Shown piece by piece: positions 16,651 through 35,529 of a stretch of 64,000 nt of DNA. Origin of the DNA: a virus; the IMG/VR virus record IMGVR_UViG_3300042905_002309, positions 105,278-169,277 of that record; one strand, 5' to 3'. A program made the position numbers and the translations under genes. The first letter of the stretch is position 1. Every line of letters starts with the position of its first letter. The notes under the pieces were generated by a model. The model was not told the origin of the DNA, did no database searches, and saw only the letters and a program-made list of their open reading frames with translations.

Positions 16651-16977
16651 ATGAGTAGTAAACCCACAACATGCGGATATTTTATGATGCGTATGAGAGA
16701 TAGTGGATACCGTGTTGAAAAGGTATTCGAAGACTATGCTCCAACTGATCCTAGATCATGGACAGTAGTGATTGATCCCGGTTTCGCCACAATCTTCTGT
16801 ACGTGTTTTATAAATCGTACTGACTTAGGTGATAATCACTTTGAGTTTTATGATGGTGGTCAATTCTTACCCAATATTAAAGTTAAGACAGCATCAATTG
16901 ATGTCTTGATTGAAACATTGGTTAAGTACGGCATTAATCATAAGGTTGGTAATTACGAAAAGTTTGCCAAAACCTGA
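16651..16977 (+). CDS. Unknown protein, 108 aa
   Basis: ATG 16651 after AAAGGATAATATT. Compact mixed protein (DPRSWTVVIDPGFATIFCTCF; FEFYDGGQFLPNI) with a C-terminal helix. No motif identified. Last gene of the replication-side operon before a late-type promoter. Confidence 0.6.
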   Translation: MSSKPTTCGYFMMRMRDSGYRVEKVFEDYAPTDPRSWTVVIDPGFATIFCTCFINRTDLGDNHFEFYDGGQFLPNIKVKTASIDVLIETLVKYGINHKVGNYEKFAKT

Positions 16978-24674: not shown

Positions 24675-27272
24675 TTATCCTCTTAAACTGTTCTGTAAAA
24701 TCTTATTACGATAATCAAAAATTTCATCTCTTGAATGTGTTACATCTGGTTGTGCAGGTGAAGGTGCAGGTGCAGGAATTAAATTAGGCAACATTTTCAA
24801 TTGATCTCCATTCACATTAAGAAGATTATTGAAAATTTCCGTGTGACTCTTTATTATAGCATTCTGTTCTGTCATACTAGTATTTAAAGCTTTTAATCCC
24901 TTTTCAATGTTTTCGAAGGTTTTACCTAATGCATCATCTTTCTTAGCATAAGTATCACCAGAAGTACGTTTGTATAATTTATCATCTTTAGCTGACTGAT
25001 AAGTAACCGTCTTTGCCATATAATCATGTGCTACAAACTTAGTTGGAACTGGTGCAGTAGCACGTTCAGATTCTCTTTGTTGTTTAACCACTCTAATAGC
25101 ATCTGTATATTTCTCTTCAATTTTCTTTTTATCTTCTGGTGATTCTGCACGAGCGTATTCAGCCTTATATCTTCTTACACGAGCTTCATCATCCATTGCA
25201 GCAATTCTATATTTCTCATGAATGGCTTCTTGTTGTTCAGGAGTTTTACCCTGTAATTCAGCCGTTTTAGATGTCATTAATGATTTAGACGTTTTACCCT
25301 TACTTTGAGTCGCTTCATTAGGGAATAATTCTTCATCCTTTTTGGTAGCATCTAATCCCATCATAGCAAACGCAAATTGAACCCACTTTGGTTGTTTTCT
25401 TAACCAACCAACCATCATCTTTTTAATTGGTGATTCACCTTTAGCATAAGCCTTTTGAGCACCTGAATCTATTATTTCATCTAAAAATCCTAACCCACCT
25501 AACATTCCACCACCTAAAGCTAATCCTATTTTGGCTAAACCCAACTCCCACTGACCACTAAATAAAGCACCAAACCCCTCACTAAGAATAATTAAATTAC
25601 CAAGTATAGGTATATTTTTAGCCTTCTTCAAAAAGACATCTTTCCACCATTTATTCATTGAATCATTCTTGCGATTCTGCATACCACCAGCCTTAATATC
25701 TGCTCCAATATTCAACATATCAAGCATTATACTTATACCCATAGCAGCAGGGGTCATATTCCATCCGGGTATCATCATATTAATACCATTGACTAAATCT
25801 ATTAAACCACCAACCCAATCTTGATTAGCAAATCTTTTAAACATGGAATAAAAAGATATTCCTGATGAAACAAAAGGTATTCTCTTTAACAAACTCTTAC
25901 CAAGGGTGCTCCATATACCCTTTCCACCAATTCCAACAGCAAATTTCCAAACACTTTGAACAGTTTGTGTTGAAAGCACTTTACCAAAAATCGTACCCTT
26001 CTCAACAATCTTTAATAATATATCTTGTACAAAGGTACTCAACATATTTGTAAATCCTGTAAAGAATTTAGTTATTCCTGTGAATTTACTAAAACCACTT
26101 AAAACAGATTTACCGAAATCAGCAATATGTCCAAAGATACCTTTTGTTGCAACCATTACACGTTCACCAACACTTACAAATTCCTTTTGAGCCATTATAC
26201 TATAACCCTTTAAAAAAACGTTAAGTTTAAGACTTGCTGCATTTATCCCAAATTTTACAATACCAACGATACCTTTACCCATAGCAGGGAATACTGATGG
26301 ATGTAATAATCCAGCTATAATAATATCATCAAAAAGCTTTTTAATAGGAAAGAAATTTGGACTGTTTATGATATCACCAATTTTCTTACGATGAATCCAC
26401 GCCATTATACCACCAGCCACCAAACTAAGAGTAGCAATAGAACCAGCAACCAATATACCCTTTACAAGTTTCCACGCCATACCCAATATAGTATCATCCA
26501 CACCAGCAGGTAATACAGCATCTTTAGTTTTATTTACCTTATCCTTATGAGTTTTTTCATCCCACTTAGTTAATTCATCCAACGATTTCCTTGAAAATCC
26601 AGCAATCTTAACTTCTTGTAAATCTTCAAAAACAGTATCCTTTTTCTTTATTTCTTTATTGGACACCATTTCATGATATTTCTTAAACCAAACTGGTTCA
26701 CCTTTATTCTTCATTTCATCAGGTGTGTTCTTTAAGGATAATTTAGGACGTTCCTTTGTTTCTACCGTTGTAAATTTAGCCTCTGGATTTAAATTGGCTT
26801 CTTTAATATTCCCTTTACCCTCATCAAATGTAGCCATAGGCTTCTTAGAAGCTTTAAAATCTAAGAAAGAAAGATTCCAATCTTTGAACTTCTTAGTAAT
26901 CTTCTCAAAATTCTTCGTTAAGTCATTAGATAAATTCTCAAGTTTAGTCGTACTGGCAGAGGTAACAATACTCTTATTGTCAATCTTCAAATCCTTGAAA
27001 AGCTTCTTAATCTCTTTATCAACAGTCTCCTTGATGTTTACAGGTTCTGATTTGACTTGAAAAGCATCTTTAAGTTTCTGTTCGTAGTCTGTAGATATGT
27101 CAGAAGAAGAAACACCTTTGAATACATCAGAGATTTTAGATGCAAGTTCCTGTACTAAGGCAGGATTTTGATAAAACATCTCAGAAATGTAATTAGAGAT
27201 GTCTAATTGCCCATCACCAGTTAAAGTGATGTCAGGAGTGTCAAAAGTTAGATTAATTGTACCAGTACTCAT
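24675..27272 (-). CDS. Tape measure protein (gp29-like), 865 aa
   Basis: Largest minus-strand gene of the tail cluster. Long helical, lysine-rich stretches. Hydrophobic segments near residues 269-291 (GILVAGSIATLSLVAGGIMA) and 505-630 (GLALGGGMLGGLGFL), typical of tape measures that meet the host membrane. It sits directly downstream of the frameshifting tail chaperone gene, the classic position. Length sets tail length; T4 gp29 has 590 aa, so a longer tail is expected. TATAAATA lies at 27278-27285, 5 bp before the ATG. Confidence 0.8.
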   Translation of the reverse strand: MSTGTINLTFDTPDITLTGDGQLDISNYISEMFYQNPALVQELASKISDVFKGVSSSDISTDYEQKLKDAFQVKSEPVNIKETVDKEIKKLFKDLKIDNKSIVTSASTTKLENLSNDLTKNFEKITKKFKDWNLSFLDFKASKKPMATFDEGKGNIKEANLNPEAKFTTVETKERPKLSLKNTPDEMKNKGEPVWFKKYHEMVSNKEIKKKDTVFEDLQEVKIAGFSRKSLDELTKWDEKTHKDKVNKTKDAVLPAGVDDTILGMAWKLVKGILVAGSIATLSLVAGGIMAWIHRKKIGDIINSPNFFPIKKLFDDIIIAGLLHPSVFPAMGKGIVGIVKFGINAASLKLNVFLKGYSIMAQKEFVSVGERVMVATKGIFGHIADFGKSVLSGFSKFTGITKFFTGFTNMLSTFVQDILLKIVEKGTIFGKVLSTQTVQSVWKFAVGIGGKGIWSTLGKSLLKRIPFVSSGISFYSMFKRFANQDWVGGLIDLVNGINMMIPGWNMTPAAMGISIMLDMLNIGADIKAGGMQNRKNDSMNKWWKDVFLKKAKNIPILGNLIILSEGFGALFSGQWELGLAKIGLALGGGMLGGLGFLDEIIDSGAQKAYAKGESPIKKMMVGWLRKQPKWVQFAFAMMGLDATKKDEELFPNEATQSKGKTSKSLMTSKTAELQGKTPEQQEAIHEKYRIAAMDDEARVRRYKAEYARAESPEDKKKIEEKYTDAIRVVKQQRESERATAPVPTKFVAHDYMAKTVTYQSAKDDKLYKRTSGDTYAKKDDALGKTFENIEKGLKALNTSMTEQNAIIKSHTEIFNNLLNVNGDQLKMLPNLIPAPAPSPAQPDVTHSRDEIFDYRNKILQNSLRG

Positions 27273-27300
27273 GTAATTATTTATAATAAAAGGTATTTTT

Positions 27301-27522
27301 CTACTGGATTCTTATTGGTGAACCTATAGTTTGCGCTGGTTTACCTTCTGGTGGATTCTCTCGACTCTGTTCATCATCGTACATAGAAAGAAATACCTCA
27401 CGTTCAGCAGGGGGTAAATTCTCTATGTATTGTGAATCAAAACCCACTTTATGCGTTAATACATAAATGTCTTGAAACACCTGAGATAAATTCGAATTAA
27501 ACAGTGTTTTTAAGAGAGTGTA
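27301..27522 (-). CDS. -1 frame extension of the tail chaperone (gp51-like/T-like part)
   Basis: A 73-codon open stretch in the -1 frame, running from the slippery site to TAG at 27301-27303. It has no ATG, GTG or TTG near its beginning, so it is best expressed by frameshifting as the tail of the upstream protein. It reads VFQDIYVLTHKVGFDSQYI then ENLPPAEREVFLSMYDDEQS. This pattern of aromatic helix plus LP..ER is what the second halves of tail chaperones and small gp51-like proteins look like. Predicted fusion product about 362 aa. Confidence 0.75.
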   Translation of the reverse strand, partial: YTLLKTLFNSNLSQVFQDIYVLTHKVGFDSQYIENLPPAEREVFLSMYDDEQSRENPPEGKPAQTIGSPIRIQ

Positions 27523-28388
27523 AAAAAACTTGCATCAATTTTCAACCTCTCTTCAATTACTTTTCCGTTAAGGTTGTATTTAAATAACAAGATTTGTTCA
27601 ATTTCTTTATTAACTGTACCAATATAATCAATTACCTTCTTGATAACTAGTGATGGCAATTGTCCCAAAATCTGTATACGACTCTTTACATCGATGTTTT
27701 TAAGATCAATCTCAATAGTAGTACCAGCTTCAAGATCGTGAATATTAATAACCTTGATATATTTCACCAATTCATTAATAAACACATTACCAATAGTTTC
27801 ACGTAATTCACTCTCATTATTGATGTCAATCTGGTTATTATTCTTACGTAATTGATTCTCAAGATTAAATTCATCAGAAATGGTTGGTAATGAGCATAGA
27901 ACGTCGAAGATGCCCTTATCATCTGTAACCGTAATAGGTGCTATCTTAGCATGTTTAAGGGCTTCTACAGCCAAATTAGCTAGGTCTACGGTCAAAGTAA
28001 CAGGAACTTCTTTTACCTCAGTAGTTTCCTCATCCTTTTTAACTTCTGGTTTAGGAATATTAAAAGTAATCTTAAAGTCATTTCCAATAGATTTTGAACG
28101 CATTACCAAAGAGATGATCAACTTATCCATGATTGTAAAATCACCAACATTAAGTTTTTCAATACAATTCTCTTCAATAATCTGTTTCAAAGCAAAAATA
28201 AACTCAGTATTGTATGCAGGAGAGTCAATAATAGCTTTCAAAAGACGTTTCTGTTGAGAAGTATTGATCTGACGGAACATTACATTTCTATCCAAAGAAG
28301 GGATAAAAATCTCATACGCAAAGCCCTCGTTTGCACGATTCATAAGCTTTAAAATATCATTTACATTACCTGTTTTTGTTTGTTCCAT
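27510..28388 (-). CDS. Tail assembly chaperone, zero-frame product (gp26-like)
   Basis: 292 aa from the ATG at 28388, preceded by AGGAG; an in-frame upstream ATG (28415) lies before the late promoter's expected start and is rejected. N-terminal pattern FAYEIFIPSLDRNVMFRQIN then TSQQKRLLKAII, as in gp26-like/T4-type tail chaperones that ask for a conserved surface 'KEQK' helix. It sits immediately upstream of the tape measure gene. Likely wraps the tape measure during assembly. Terminates at 27510-27512 just after a T7 slippery run. Confidence 0.75.
   Translation of the reverse strand: MEQTKTGNVNDILKLMNRANEGFAYEIFIPSLDRNVMFRQINTSQQKRLLKAIIDSPAYNTEFIFALKQIIEENCIEKLNVGDFTIMDKLIISLVMRSKSIGNDFKITFNIPKPEVKKDEETTEVKEVPVTLTVDLANLAVEALKHAKIAPITVTDDKGIFDVLCSLPTISDEFNLENQLRKNNNQIDINNESELRETIGNVFINELVKYIKVINIHDLEAGTTIEIDLKNIDVKSRIQILGQLPSLVIKKVIDYIGTVNKEIEQILLFKYNLNGKVIEERLKIDASFFTLS
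27522..27528 (-). promoter_or_regulatory. Slippery heptamer for -1 ribosomal frameshift
   Basis: On the minus strand the codons read AGT TTT TTT ACA. The seven T form T TTT TTT in the zero frame, a perfect X XXY YYZ heptamer, 9 bp before the zero-frame stop. Slippage joins the gp26-like frame to the downstream 73-codon frame. Same logic as the gpG/gpGT genes of lambda. Confidence 0.75.
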
Positions 28389-28405
28389 AAGAATACTCCT
28401 ATAAT

Positions 28406-28436: not shown

Positions 28437-30290
28437 TTACTTACTTCTTAGTACATCATTAGCAGGAGTTGGAATGTATACAAATTTAATCGTTTTACTT
28501 GGTTCTGTAACTTTAGTAGGATTTGGTTTAACGTTTCCAACTTGTTCTTTACCAGTTAAATGATCATTAGAATCAGGATTTGGTAAAATATTCTGTAAAT
28601 CATGTAAACCATCAGGTCTATCATTTTGATCGATTGATTTACCACCTACAATTATTTCACCATGTCTGACATCATTTATAGGTGGATTTGGTCTGACTAT
28701 ATATGATAACAACGCATTAGGTTTAATACCATTTATACCGATTGCATCCTTTGAATCAGTAAATACAGGTTTATAAGGAAGATTAGGATCAGAACCCACA
28801 GTACTTATATTAGGTGTATCGTTCTTTGGAGTTGCAATATTTGTGTTTGTATAAGAAGGATTACCCAATTCTCTACCAACACCATTTTGTACATGATGTG
28901 TAGCATCGTCATTTCTACCATTTGGATTAAGTTTTTCAAGAGTACTTGTAACAGCTACATTTAATCCTTCAATAGCAGTATTTAAAGGTTTTGTAACAGT
29001 TTGTTCACCCTTAACAATCCAACTCAAGGTAGTACCGTCCACAGCACCTAAAGTGTTATTAATAGCGGTTTGTACCATACCGATTGCTTGAGTTTCATAA
29101 CCCTTTAATTTAGAATCTAACATAGCTGTGAATTTATCCATAATTCCTGCTTTATTTTTTGTTGGGCCTTTTATAACACCCGCAGGAGATAATGTAGTCT
29201 CAGTCAATCCATTCATAATAGCATCAGCATAATTAATAGTTCTTACCATATCAGTTTCATTATTAGTTCTAGTTAAAAATCTACCAGTTATGTCGCCTAA
29301 TTGATTTTCAGTTCTCATTATACTTTCAAACAAAGTACCTTCACCATTTTTAATGGTATCCATAGTATAAGTTTTAAACCCAAATTTAACTGTACGTAAT
29401 GTTGGTGATGTGTCTTGAGTATAATTATATTCCATGTTATCAACATCCATAGGAACACAATCAGAATACGTGAAAATTTTTCTTGGTACAAATCCATTAC
29501 CTGTGGCTGTTTTTCCAAATCCACCTGTTCCCCCGTTACCACCAATTCTAGTTAATGCAATCATAGTGATATTTGCTTTTAATTTAGACTCTTTTAAACT
29601 TGCGTGTGATACAGCAACCATCCAAGGACGTAAAACATAATCTACAAATGAAGTATTATTTTCTAATATTTTAACATCTAAAGTATTAAACGGTGTTCTA
29701 CCCATACCCACAACACCTTGTATATAACCAGTATTCGTTGTACCAACTCTATTTAAAGTTCCACTATCACCAACCACACTAACGCCTTGGGCTAATAATA
29801 AATGTTTACCATTAAAACTATACTTATTCATTTCCTTTAAATCATATATAAATAAACCCTTTTCATAGGCATTTAAAACTTTACTTACATTTGCACAAAC
29901 GTCTTGAAAATCAATATCGATAAGCCATATATCATTTAATGATATACCACTAAATTTATTTAAAGTCGTCGTTAAAAATTGGTTATATAAATTGTAAAAT
30001 GCTGGATTAAATGGTGTAATAGCAGATTTTAAATCCATATTTTGATTCTGATTTTGAGCACGTTGTTCATATTTTACCCAATCAGGGTTTACTTTAACAG
30101 GAACATTATTTGGAGTTTCTTGAAATTGCGGAAAAGAATCAAGACCACGATCTGCTTCCATATCAAGTATAGGAGTAAATCCAGTATCCTTGAATAAGTC
30201 ATTTGGTGTATATTGAACTGGTGTTTCTTTTTTTAATAGATTAGCAATATTCAAATTCGCTGGTATGAGACTTCTAATTGTTGTTGACAT
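28437..30290 (-). CDS. Tail structural protein with tube-like domain, 617 aa
   Basis: Located between tube and tail chaperone genes. NGFVPRKIFTYSDCVPMD then VDNMEYNYTQDTSPTLRTVKFGFKTY has the 'dipping sheet then insertion loop' cadence of gp19-type tube proteins. A long low-complexity Pro/Asn C-terminal region follows (PPINDVRHGEIIVGGKS). No exact family. It has its own late box and an AAAGGTG ribosome site. Could be a tail terminator, a tube-related decoration or a baseplate part. Confidence 0.55.
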   Translation of the reverse strand: MSTTIRSLIPANLNIANLLKKETPVQYTPNDLFKDTGFTPILDMEADRGLDSFPQFQETPNNVPVKVNPDWVKYEQRAQNQNQNMDLKSAITPFNPAFYNLYNQFLTTTLNKFSGISLNDIWLIDIDFQDVCANVSKVLNAYEKGLFIYDLKEMNKYSFNGKHLLLAQGVSVVGDSGTLNRVGTTNTGYIQGVVGMGRTPFNTLDVKILENNTSFVDYVLRPWMVAVSHASLKESKLKANITMIALTRIGGNGGTGGFGKTATGNGFVPRKIFTYSDCVPMDVDNMEYNYTQDTSPTLRTVKFGFKTYTMDTIKNGEGTLFESIMRTENQLGDITGRFLTRTNNETDMVRTINYADAIMNGLTETTLSPAGVIKGPTKNKAGIMDKFTAMLDSKLKGYETQAIGMVQTAINNTLGAVDGTTLSWIVKGEQTVTKPLNTAIEGLNVAVTSTLEKLNPNGRNDDATHHVQNGVGRELGNPSYTNTNIATPKNDTPNISTVGSDPNLPYKPVFTDSKDAIGINGIKPNALLSYIVRPNPPINDVRHGEIIVGGKSIDQNDRPDGLHDLQNILPNPDSNDHLTGKEQVGNVKPNPTKVTEPSKTIKFVYIPTPANDVLRSK

Positions 30291-30305: not shown

Positions 30306-30313
30306 TATTTATA
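30306..30313 (-). promoter_or_regulatory. T4-late-like promoter box
   Basis: Minus strand TATAAATA then CTTTAAAGGTG and the ATG at 30290. It directly follows the terminator of the tube gene, starting a new unit. Confidence 0.7.
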
Positions 30314-30380: not shown

Positions 30381-30890
30381 TTAAACTTCGTTCCACCACT
30401 GATATGCCATCGTAGCATCAAATTCTCTTGGAGCACCAGCACCTTGAATGTCATAAGATACTTCACCCAACTTGACAATATAAATACCCTTGAGTTCGTA
30501 TGTACGAATTGCTGCAAGATTCTTATCAAGTAACTGTACGGTAGCAGTTTCCACTGGCACACCATACTTACCACTTGAGGTGTTGACATCAAACAACTCG
30601 GTCATCCAGGCACTTAATTTTGAACGAATATTATTCGCTTCATCTGAGTGGAATTTAACAGCCCATCCATCTGATCCTGTATACTTGACAGAACCTGGTA
30701 CGTTAAATTGTAAACCCATATAATTCACAGCCTGATTGGTGATTTCTTTTCCGGGTAAAGTAGCGGTCTTAATATAGACCATATCATCAGTTCCAAGTGG
30801 CCCTAATGTTACCACACGAAATTGAAAGTCTCTAGCGAATTCACGCTGTTGAGCGATGTCATAGAATTTTTGGATGCCAAGTTCTGCCAT
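30381..30890 (-). CDS. 19: Tail tube protein (T4 gp19-like)
   Basis: 169 aa from ATG 30890 (AAGGAG upstream); T4 gp19 has 163 aa. Begins MAELGIQKFYDIAQQREFAR. FQFRVVTLGPLGTDDMVYIKT and ATLPGKEITN match the tube fold's first sheet; FDVNTSSGKYGVP is the variable loop; LKGIYIVKLGEVSYDIQG then DATMAYQWWNEV closes it. Polymerises into the inner tail tube. In T4, gene 19 directly follows sheath gene 18; here an HNH gene sits between. Confidence 0.9.
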   Translation of the reverse strand: MAELGIQKFYDIAQQREFARDFQFRVVTLGPLGTDDMVYIKTATLPGKEITNQAVNYMGLQFNVPGSVKYTGSDGWAVKFHSDEANNIRSKLSAWMTELFDVNTSSGKYGVPVETATVQLLDKNLAAIRTYELKGIYIVKLGEVSYDIQGAGAPREFDATMAYQWWNEV

Positions 30891-30921
30891 AATTTTTCTC
30901 CTTATAAAGTGTTTCTTATAA

Positions 30922-31626
30922 TTATTTAGTATTTTGTCCGTCAATTCTATCGCTTTTTAAAATATTTTCTAATTGCCATAAAGGTTGAAGATTGGTATAA
31001 TGAAAGCATTTCTTTTGTTGTTCTGGATCACTTAAATCGAATGATGCACATGGTATAATGTGATCCATATTCCATTTATCTATACCAAAACCATAATTAT
31101 CCCAATTCATACCATTATTGAACTGTTGTTCTAAATGTAATTTTAATTGTTCCATAGTACAACCTAATAAGTCTAAAGTTTTCTTACACTTATTTTTACC
31201 CTTTAAAACATGATGTAATCGTCTACGAAGATTACAAATTAATTTAAAATTTATATCATTAACTCTACGTTGTTTTTGTTTTAAATAAATCTCAGATTTA
31301 TGATTTTCATAATATTTTTTAGTGAGTTTACTATGATGAGCTTTATTTTGCTGATACCATTCATCTCTATATTTTTCGTAATACTCACTGTGTTCTGTAT
31401 AATATTTCTTACGATTAATATCCATATGTTCTTTATTATCTTGATAATATTTCTGATTTTTAATCTTTAATCGTTCTTCGTGTTTTAATCTATAAGCTTC
31501 AATATTTGGTTTATTATTTTTATCGTGACATTCTTTACAGATAGTTCTATACTTATTCTGATCTTTTCTAAAATAAAATTCTGTAGTATCTTTTTCTAAT
31601 TTACATCGTTTACATATTTGTTTCAT
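30922..31626 (-). CDS. HNH homing endonuclease, zinc-ribbon type
   Basis: 234 aa, inserted between sheath and tube genes. Zinc ribbon CKRCKLEKDTTEFYF then CKECHDK; helical repeats rich in Tyr, Lys and His (YYTEHSEYYEKYRDEWY); HNH core KWNMDHIIPCASFDLSD and HYTNLQPLWQLENILKS. Its stop codon lies in ACT AAA TAA, which is also the late box of the tube gene. A TATAAATA box sits 6 bp before its own ATG. Confidence 0.88.
   Translation of the reverse strand: MKQICKRCKLEKDTTEFYFRKDQNKYRTICKECHDKNNKPNIEAYRLKHEERLKIKNQKYYQDNKEHMDINRKKYYTEHSEYYEKYRDEWYQQNKAHHSKLTKKYYENHKSEIYLKQKQRRVNDINFKLICNLRRRLHHVLKGKNKCKKTLDLLGCTMEQLKLHLEQQFNNGMNWDNYGFGIDKWNMDHIIPCASFDLSDPEQQKKCFHYTNLQPLWQLENILKSDRIDGQNTK
30923..30929 (-). 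promoter_or_regulatory. Late-like box of the tail tube gene, inside the HNH stop
   Basis: Minus strand CTAAATA then ATTATAAG, about 33 bp before the tube ATG at 30890 with AAGGAG between. The TAA of the HNH gene is part of the box. Confidence 0.6.
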
Positions 31627-31632
31627 AAAATT

Positions 31633-31640
31633 TATTTATA
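31633..31640 (-). promoter_or_regulatory. T4-late-like promoter box before the HNH gene
   Basis: Minus strand TATAAATA, ending 6 bp before the ATG at 31626, so it would give a nearly leaderless HNH message. It may be the remnant of the tube gene's original promoter. Confidence 0.5.
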
Positions 31641-34166: not shown

Positions 34167-34174
34167 TATTTATA
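34167..34174 (-). promoter_or_regulatory. T4-late-like promoter box for the sheath gene
   Basis: Minus strand TATAAATA running directly into AAGGAGAAAAC and the ATG at 34151. Exact match to the T4 late consensus. Confidence 0.75.
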
Positions 34175-34211: not shown

Positions 34212-34870
34212 TTATTTAGTTTTTTTAAAACCGAATCCTTTGTTTTTCTTCAAATTATCTTTCCACCATAAAGGTTGAAGATTTGTGTACCAAAAGGCAA
34301 TTTTAACTTGTTCGGGATCAGATAAGTCAAATACACGTAATGGTTGAATATGGTCAAAATGCCAACCAAACTTGCCATGATTTTCCCATGTCATACCATC
34401 TTTAAACTGGTTTTCTATATATTCTTTTAATTTTAATGGTGTGCAACCTAAATAATCTAAAGTTTTACGATCTTTAATATATTTATTACGTTTTAATACT
34501 TGTCTAATACGACTACGTTGACTACCAATACATTTCTGAATTGGATCAGTATTTCTTCGTAATTTATTTAATTCACGACGTTTTTCTCTATTTTTTCTCT
34601 AGACTTCCTCTTTAATTCATTAACATGATCAGGCATTTCTTCACGACGGGTTCTTGCATACTCAGATTTTTCTTGTATATGATTTAAATAATATTGTTTA
34701 TTATACACATTACGATGATTATTATCATTTAATCTAGCATTATTATCACACCAATATCTGATTAACGCTTTACTTACATTAAGTATATTACCAATTTCAC
34801 CATAAGATTTACCTTCTTCTCTTAGAGTTTTTGCTAATATCTTTTCTTCATTTGTATGTATTATTTTCAT
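34212..34870 (-). pseudogene. Broken HNH endonuclease (single frameshift)
   Basis: Two pieces of one gene. 34870 down to 34568 encodes a helix-turn-helix-like N-terminus (EEGKSYGEIGNILNVSKALIR) and the start of the basic middle. The remaining frame, from about 34596 to 34212, holds REKRRELNKLRRN, LDYLGCTPLKLKEYIENQF, and the HNH core GKFGWHFDHIQPLRVFDLSD with WYTNLQPLWWKDN. One extra A in the A6 run near 34600 restores a single reading frame of about 219 codons. It starts ATGA-overlapped with the tube-like gene. Confidence 0.8.
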
Positions 34871-35529
34871 GTTGGTGGATCAACTAAACTCACCTGCACC
34901 TGACCATAAGCAAAATCAAACGAACAAGGGATATCTTCACTACTTTGATAATCGTAATCAAATCCACCTAATTGCGTAATAAATGCATGTTTATAATCAA
35001 ATTTAATTATATTCACATTATATTCATCTTTAGCATACAATGTCATAGTTGTTTGATATGCATCGTATGGTTTTTGCATTTTAATTTCTTTATAGCGTAT
35101 TGGATTATTTTTCGAGTCTTTTCTCATAGCATCAATAACTTTTTGTGGATCATTATCAAATTCTGCAAATCTAGGGTCCATACCACTTGTATCAGGATTA
35201 TTTAAAATGTATAACCACTTCCAGAGGTAAAAATAGTTATTATAACGGTTATCAATTGTAAATTTAACCTTTGTTGTAGGATATCTAGAACGTGTTTGAC
35301 TAGTAATATGCATAGTTTGTCCCATAAAACTCATGGGAATTTCACTAATAGTGTGTGTAGGTAGATTTATACTAGCTACAGAATATTGCATACTATCTTG
35401 ATTTAAAAAATCTTTACCACGTTCACAACGAGTTAATTCATTTAATAAAATTGGTGGTGTTGTAATAATTAAAATAAATTTATCAATTTTTGACTTATTG
35501 AGTACTGTTTGTGGTGTATTTTCTAACAT
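34867..35529 (-). CDS. Tube-like tail protein (second gp19-type), 220 aa
   Basis: Contains the gp19-type pattern: TRCERGKDFLNQDSMQYSV then ASINLPTHTISEI; TTKVKFTIDNRYNNYFYLWK; and YKHAFITQLGGFDYDYQSS then CSFDFAYGQVQVSLVDP. T4-like phages have several such tube-fold proteins (tube, terminator or baseplate). Driven by the minus half of a palindromic late promoter. Function within the tail is not resolved. Confidence 0.6.
   Translation of the reverse strand: MLENTPQTVLNKSKIDKFILIITTPPILLNELTRCERGKDFLNQDSMQYSVASINLPTHTISEIPMSFMGQTMHITSQTRSRYPTTKVKFTIDNRYNNYFYLWKWLYILNNPDTSGMDPRFAEFDNDPQKVIDAMRKDSKNNPIRYKEIKMQKPYDAYQTTMTLYAKDEYNVNIIKFDYKHAFITQLGGFDYDYQSSEDIPCSFDFAYGQVQVSLVDPPT

Follow-up and report, generated by a model that had tools for sequence, protein, structure and literature searches.

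A T4-type gp26-like gene very probably gives rise to two tail assembly chaperones in the manner of lambda G/GT, the long one being made by programmed -1 ribosomal frameshifting on a run of seven Ts. The gene lies in the window, by which is meant the whole 64,000-nt stretch analyzed, which comes from a virus record of 248 kb in IMG/VR. We infer the slippage itself, its rate and the chaperone function, as follows. The majority of ribosomes would complete the gp26-like frame and yield a 292-aa short chaperone, while a smaller share, with both the P and the A site occupied by tRNA-Phe on T_TTT_TTT, would slip back by one base, bypass the TAA and yield a 362-aa protein that carries a helical domain of the gp51-like kind. 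On the model of lambda G/GT, the tape measure protein would be coated by many copies of the short form and few of the long one, which would direct assembly of the tube.

The overlapping frames and their surroundings

The features of the locus and its neighbors are as follows (window coordinates).

28396-28400, minus strand: Shine-Dalgarno (SD) sequence AGGAG of the gp26-like gene
28388, minus strand: start codon ATG of the gp26-like gene
28388-27510, minus strand: gp26-like ORF in the 0 frame, 292 aa, putative short tail assembly chaperone
27528-27522, minus strand: slippery heptamer T_TTT_TTT, in-phase X_XXY_YYZ, with the same position, phase and spacing in contigs L212 and L230
27512-27510, minus strand: 0-frame stop TAA, 9 nt past the heptamer
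27301-27522, minus strand: gp51-like -1 extension, 73 codons plus TAG, matching phrog_634 and aligning with the C-terminal domain of fused homologues
27303-27301, minus strand: -1-frame stop TAG
24675-27272, minus strand: 865-aa ORF in the tape measure position, from its position, length, hydrophobic stretches and a weak phrog_23178 match
28437-30290, minus strand: 617-aa ORF with a match to tail tube family phrog_45 (E 0.0034, over about 110 residues only)
30381-30944, minus strand: match to tail tube family phrog_45 (E 1.1e-20)
34867-35529, minus strand: match to tail tube family phrog_45 (E 1.2e-12)
27278-27285, 30306-30313, 31633-31640 and 34167-34174, minus strand: TATAAATA sites, T4 late promoter motif

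The 3' end of the gp26-like gene reads GCA AGT TTT TTT ACA CTC TCT TAA, with the heptamer three codons before TAA, which confirms the earlier sequence-only reading that this frame stops 9 bp after the T7 at 27522-27528. The 73 codons which that reading assigned to the -1 frame (post-slip residues YTLLK...IRIQ of the 362-aa product) also stand. Its claim that the frame has no start codon of its own is correct for plausible starts only, as it contains a GTG at 27480 and, roughly 53 codons into the frame, an ATG, with no such start-type codon close to its beginning. A 73-codon open stretch in a random frame has P of about 0.005. Among 92 stop-to-stop ORFs of at least 100 codons within the window, the gp26-like ORF is the only one to have both a heptamer in phase close to its stop and a -1 extension exceeding 22 codons (here 69, counted from the stop).

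The two frames are directly upstream of the putative tape measure ORF, with a gap of 28 nt from the TAG of the -1 frame to the 865-aa ORF. The family weakly matched by this ORF, phrog_23178, is named 'peptidase', and an ORF with the same name follows gp51 in phage C48C1. T4-type genes are present for DNA polymerase (phrog_262), gp32-like, RecA-like and DnaB-like proteins, terminase, tail sheath and tail tubes. Neither a second gp26/gp51 locus nor a T4-style separate gene for the long form was found in the 248-kb record, which may be partial. The motif TATAAATA occurs just 5' of several ORFs of the tail region, and its total in the window is 17 versus 13.4 by chance, which is no excess. A 234-aa cysteine-rich, HNH-endonuclease-like ORF between the sheath and tube genes (30922-31626, minus strand) is, judged by its sequence, probably a homing endonuclease.

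The 0 frame matches PF12322 with 25.1 bits, above the curated Pfam cut-off of 24.5, and phrog_150 in a profile search (E 3.1e-6). The -1 extension has a significant profile match to phrog_634, 'baseplate hub assembly catalyst' (E 2.5e-5). A profile of the window's clade and nearest outgroup, built without cyanophage or pelagiphage rows, matches the cyano/pelagiphage gp26 profile with a probability of 98.8 (E 9.6e-17). No named phage was matched by blastn (distant) of the region or by tblastn of the whole gp26-like protein. The AlphaFold2 model of the window protein has a pLDDT of 88, and the predicted fold of the long form of a relative (L103) is like those predicted for viral hub/gp26-like proteins. 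Fold searches of the PDB gave no significant match, with the HK97 tail assembly chaperone 2ob9 at probability 0.47 (E 0.64). T4 genes 26 and 51 have domains homologous to those of the window, and the C-terminal stretch of T4 gp51 (YQINH...MIPAER) resembles the -1 extension; however, the T4 genes are separate and on opposite strands, whereas the window has one locus with overlapping frames.

The layout in cyanophage- and pelagiphage-type relatives

An in-phase T6-T7 near the gp26-like stop, followed by an open -1 frame with the same domain, is found in 171/174 homologous matches. These matches come from 169 distinct contigs (five contigs twice), some of them near-identical, and 166/169 contigs have the layout. 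It is present in 80/80 IMG/VR cyanophage-type loci and in 82/85 matches of a second divergent group, the other three of which comprise one C_TTT_TTC with an open extension and two match ORFs without extension. Named phages with a T6-T8 run ending gp26 and an open -1 gp51 frame are pelagiphages HTVC008M and Mosig, Methylophilales phage Melnitz, C48C1, Caulobacter phage Cr30 and cyanophage S-ShM2. In phages of this type (S-ShM2, HTVC008M, Mosig, Melnitz), as in the window, the in-phase run and the -1 gp51 domain precede the tape measure gene. However, the gp26-like proteins share only about 20-25% identity with that of the window, the heptamer is mostly T_TTT_TTC rather than T_TTT_TTT, and the distance from slip to stop is 0-3 nt rather than 9 nt. 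Over all 171 sites this distance is 0-9 nt with one exception (24 nt). Thus, the layout is not unusual for a T4-type phage, as had been supposed from the sequence alone, but is the rule in cyanophage/pelagiphage-type phages. The sequence-only reading had proposed conservation of the T7 and -1 frame as a check; an in-phase T6-T7 with an open -1 frame is conserved in these 171/174 matches and, together with in-frame fusions in 29 relatives, strongly supports both its gp26/gp51 assignment and its programmed -1 frameshift.

The pattern of substitution follows the -1 frame. Entropy at its codon positions 1, 2 and 3 is 0.95, 0.73 and 1.34, respectively, in 86 cyano-type loci, with variability tracking this frame from just past the slip; among the window, L212 and L230, position 2 also has the fewest changes. 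With a cyanophage extension as the query, 488 named phage records were matched, and in the 60 of these that were listed the extension falls on the 'baseplate hub' gene plus any separate 'assembly catalyst' or hypothetical gene.

It is very improbable that the gp51-like part is instead a separate small gene, translated from GTG 27480 or by reinitiation past the gp26-like stop. A 59-aa ORF does begin at this GTG, and cyanophage records annotate gp51 as a gene of its own. However, inspection of the sequence upstream of the GTG revealed no SD, and the extension is without any ATG in 8/82 loci of the second group. Additionally, the conserved -1 frame starts at the slip, which in all six named phages precedes the annotated gp51 start, and relatives with two genes carry the gp51-like domain solely as a fusion. 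In the cyano/pelagiphage-type records examined, the 'separate' gp51 gene is a shortened -1 frame, which suggests that the small gp51 genes of cyanophage records are cut-down pieces of the frameshift product.

The heptamers are T_TTT_TTC at 156 of the 171 sites, T_TTT_TTT at 12, T_TTT_TTA at two and T_TTT_TTG at one. RNA polymerase slippage on the T7, in which some transcripts would gain a U that joins the frames, is very unlikely: seven identical bases are close to the minimum for this process, but the 156 T_TTT_TTC sites have six Ts only. The ribosomal phase X_XXY_YYZ, which polymerase slippage does not need, is found at 171/171 sites, in a scan that required this phase and in which L265 was the only layout-bearing locus to fail it. 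A sequencing or assembly error that split one continuous gene, an alternative that the sequence-only reading had itself raised, carries the classic signature of a split at a homopolymer but can be practically dismissed, given identical DNA in three more IMG/VR contigs, each assembled from a different metagenome than the window, a T7 of equal phase and spacing (9 nt) in the divergent L212 and L230, and the layout in other related loci.

Ribosomal frameshifting accords with what is known of tail chaperones. In lambda, the slip sequence is GGGAAAG, and in the G/GT type the long product is a few percent of the short, both being needed for tails. The window shares with this type overlapping frames, a conserved in-phase heptamer and a conserved second-frame domain that in relatives is fused to the first. 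Tail chaperones made by frameshifting are a classic finding (Xu et al. 2004, as cited in PMC8785237), and the chaperones of T4-like phages were identified by Vladimirov et al. 2022 (Virology 566:9), as referred to in PMC10885494 and PMC12846349. In some T4-like phages, the long form has a fused gene of its own (PMC10885494, citing Vladimirov et al. 2022). According to PMC12846349, TAC-N genes of T4-like phages are known to carry poly-T slippery sites, and Vandenendeviridae/Andersonviridae have -1 frameshift chaperones with a GTTTTT motif. In lambda G/GT and in these two families, as in the window, the -1 shift is near the end of the short frame and upstream of the tape measure gene; the likeness is one of layout, with sequence relationship forming no part of it. 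Thus, the chaperone frameshift layout is already known and is common in marine T4-type phages, and the window is a divergent example of it.

Candidate frameshift stimulators

All results on stimulators are computational. Most cyano/pelagiphage-type loci have an SD-like element upstream of the slip, whereas in the window it is absent from the usual 10-14 nt upstream. No significant RNA structure was found downstream in the window (z -0.67; +0.46 versus synonymous shuffles). Thus, on sequence grounds, the shift in the window may depend on the T7 run alone.

An SD-like motif 4-20 nt upstream of the slip is present in 59/86 cyano-type loci versus a background of 1.4%. Shortly before the slip, an EG motif has GAG as its Glu codon in 59/84 cyano-type loci versus 30% elsewhere in gp26 (Fisher p 1.4e-13). 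The SD-like GGAGGG is seen in L014-L019 and L022-L101 and is absent from the window and the second group; with the GAG preference, it resembles E. coli dnaX-type frameshift stimulators.

For 85 cyano-type extensions, folding is more stable than for within-sequence synonymous shuffles (-35.0 versus -29.1 kcal/mol), although a weaker folding excess is also present in gp26-internal controls, and only the first 48 nt past the slip stand out (z -1.04 versus about -0.3). RNAalifold on codon-aligned extensions found no consensus structure, so no common hairpin is claimed. A compact hairpin is predicted after the slip in Cr30 (L018) and L230, and a long-range stem of ~10 bp in Melnitz (L015), Mosig (L016) and C48C1 (L017), pairing CCCUCUC just after the slip with GAGAGGG ~95 nt downstream (WERE codons).

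Probable frameshift and two-gene solutions in one clade

Membership of the window's clade was defined by tail sheath. Besides L212 and L230, which are of the frameshift type, 29 genomes of this clade have two tandem genes and no frameshift layout; the first gene is a gp26-like domain fused in frame to a gp51-like domain, and the second is a short gp26-like gene. These relatives (L103, L218, L192 and others) have the same two domains as the window, between the tube genes and the tape measure gene, but their long form is an in-frame gene of its own with no need for a frameshift. Both forms have separate genes in T4 itself and in most close relatives of the window. Translated in silico through the slip, the window locus gives a product that aligns across the junction with 20/29 of the fused proteins (3.5e-10 for the L103 fusion), and these junction-spanning alignments are the strongest argument for the two parts being a single protein.

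At L103:16770-18352, where the long (fused) and short genes are in tandem, the short gene still ends in TTT TTT, with a -1 frame that stops immediately. This end resembles a vestigial slip site. At L230:16004-16878, the gp26-like N-terminal frame is broken near 16664 and resumes in another frame (sequencing error or damage).

In the gene tree, the long genes form a single clade (SH-aLRT 99), and the frameshift genes of the window, L212 and L230 are placed among the short genes. An alternative tree, with long and short genes together to the exclusion of the frameshift genes, is not rejected (AU p 0.43). In the sheath tree, the three frameshift phages group together (95/98), but the tree does not fix their position, and the two-gene phages are monophyletic in 32% of bootstraps. 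Thus, AU tests and sheath trees do not decide whether the frameshift or the two genes came first within this clade. Since distant groups frameshift, this state probably predates the two-gene one in the family. On a tentative and rather doubtful reading, the frameshift and the tandem long and short genes are interchangeable within one T4-type clade, with the window lineage having kept or regained frameshifting after duplication. On that reading, because the window gene is nested among short genes of relatives with two genes, its ancestor may already have carried a distinct long gene, later lost.

Programmed frameshifting in the window would extend the short/long chaperone logic of lambda to very divergent T4-type jumbo phages. 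The coexistence of frameshift and two-gene solutions in the window's clade is of added interest; we found no description of both in one clade, in a literature that is incomplete on this point. As one clade has both routes to the two proteins, the evolution of chaperone ratio control is testable by comparison.
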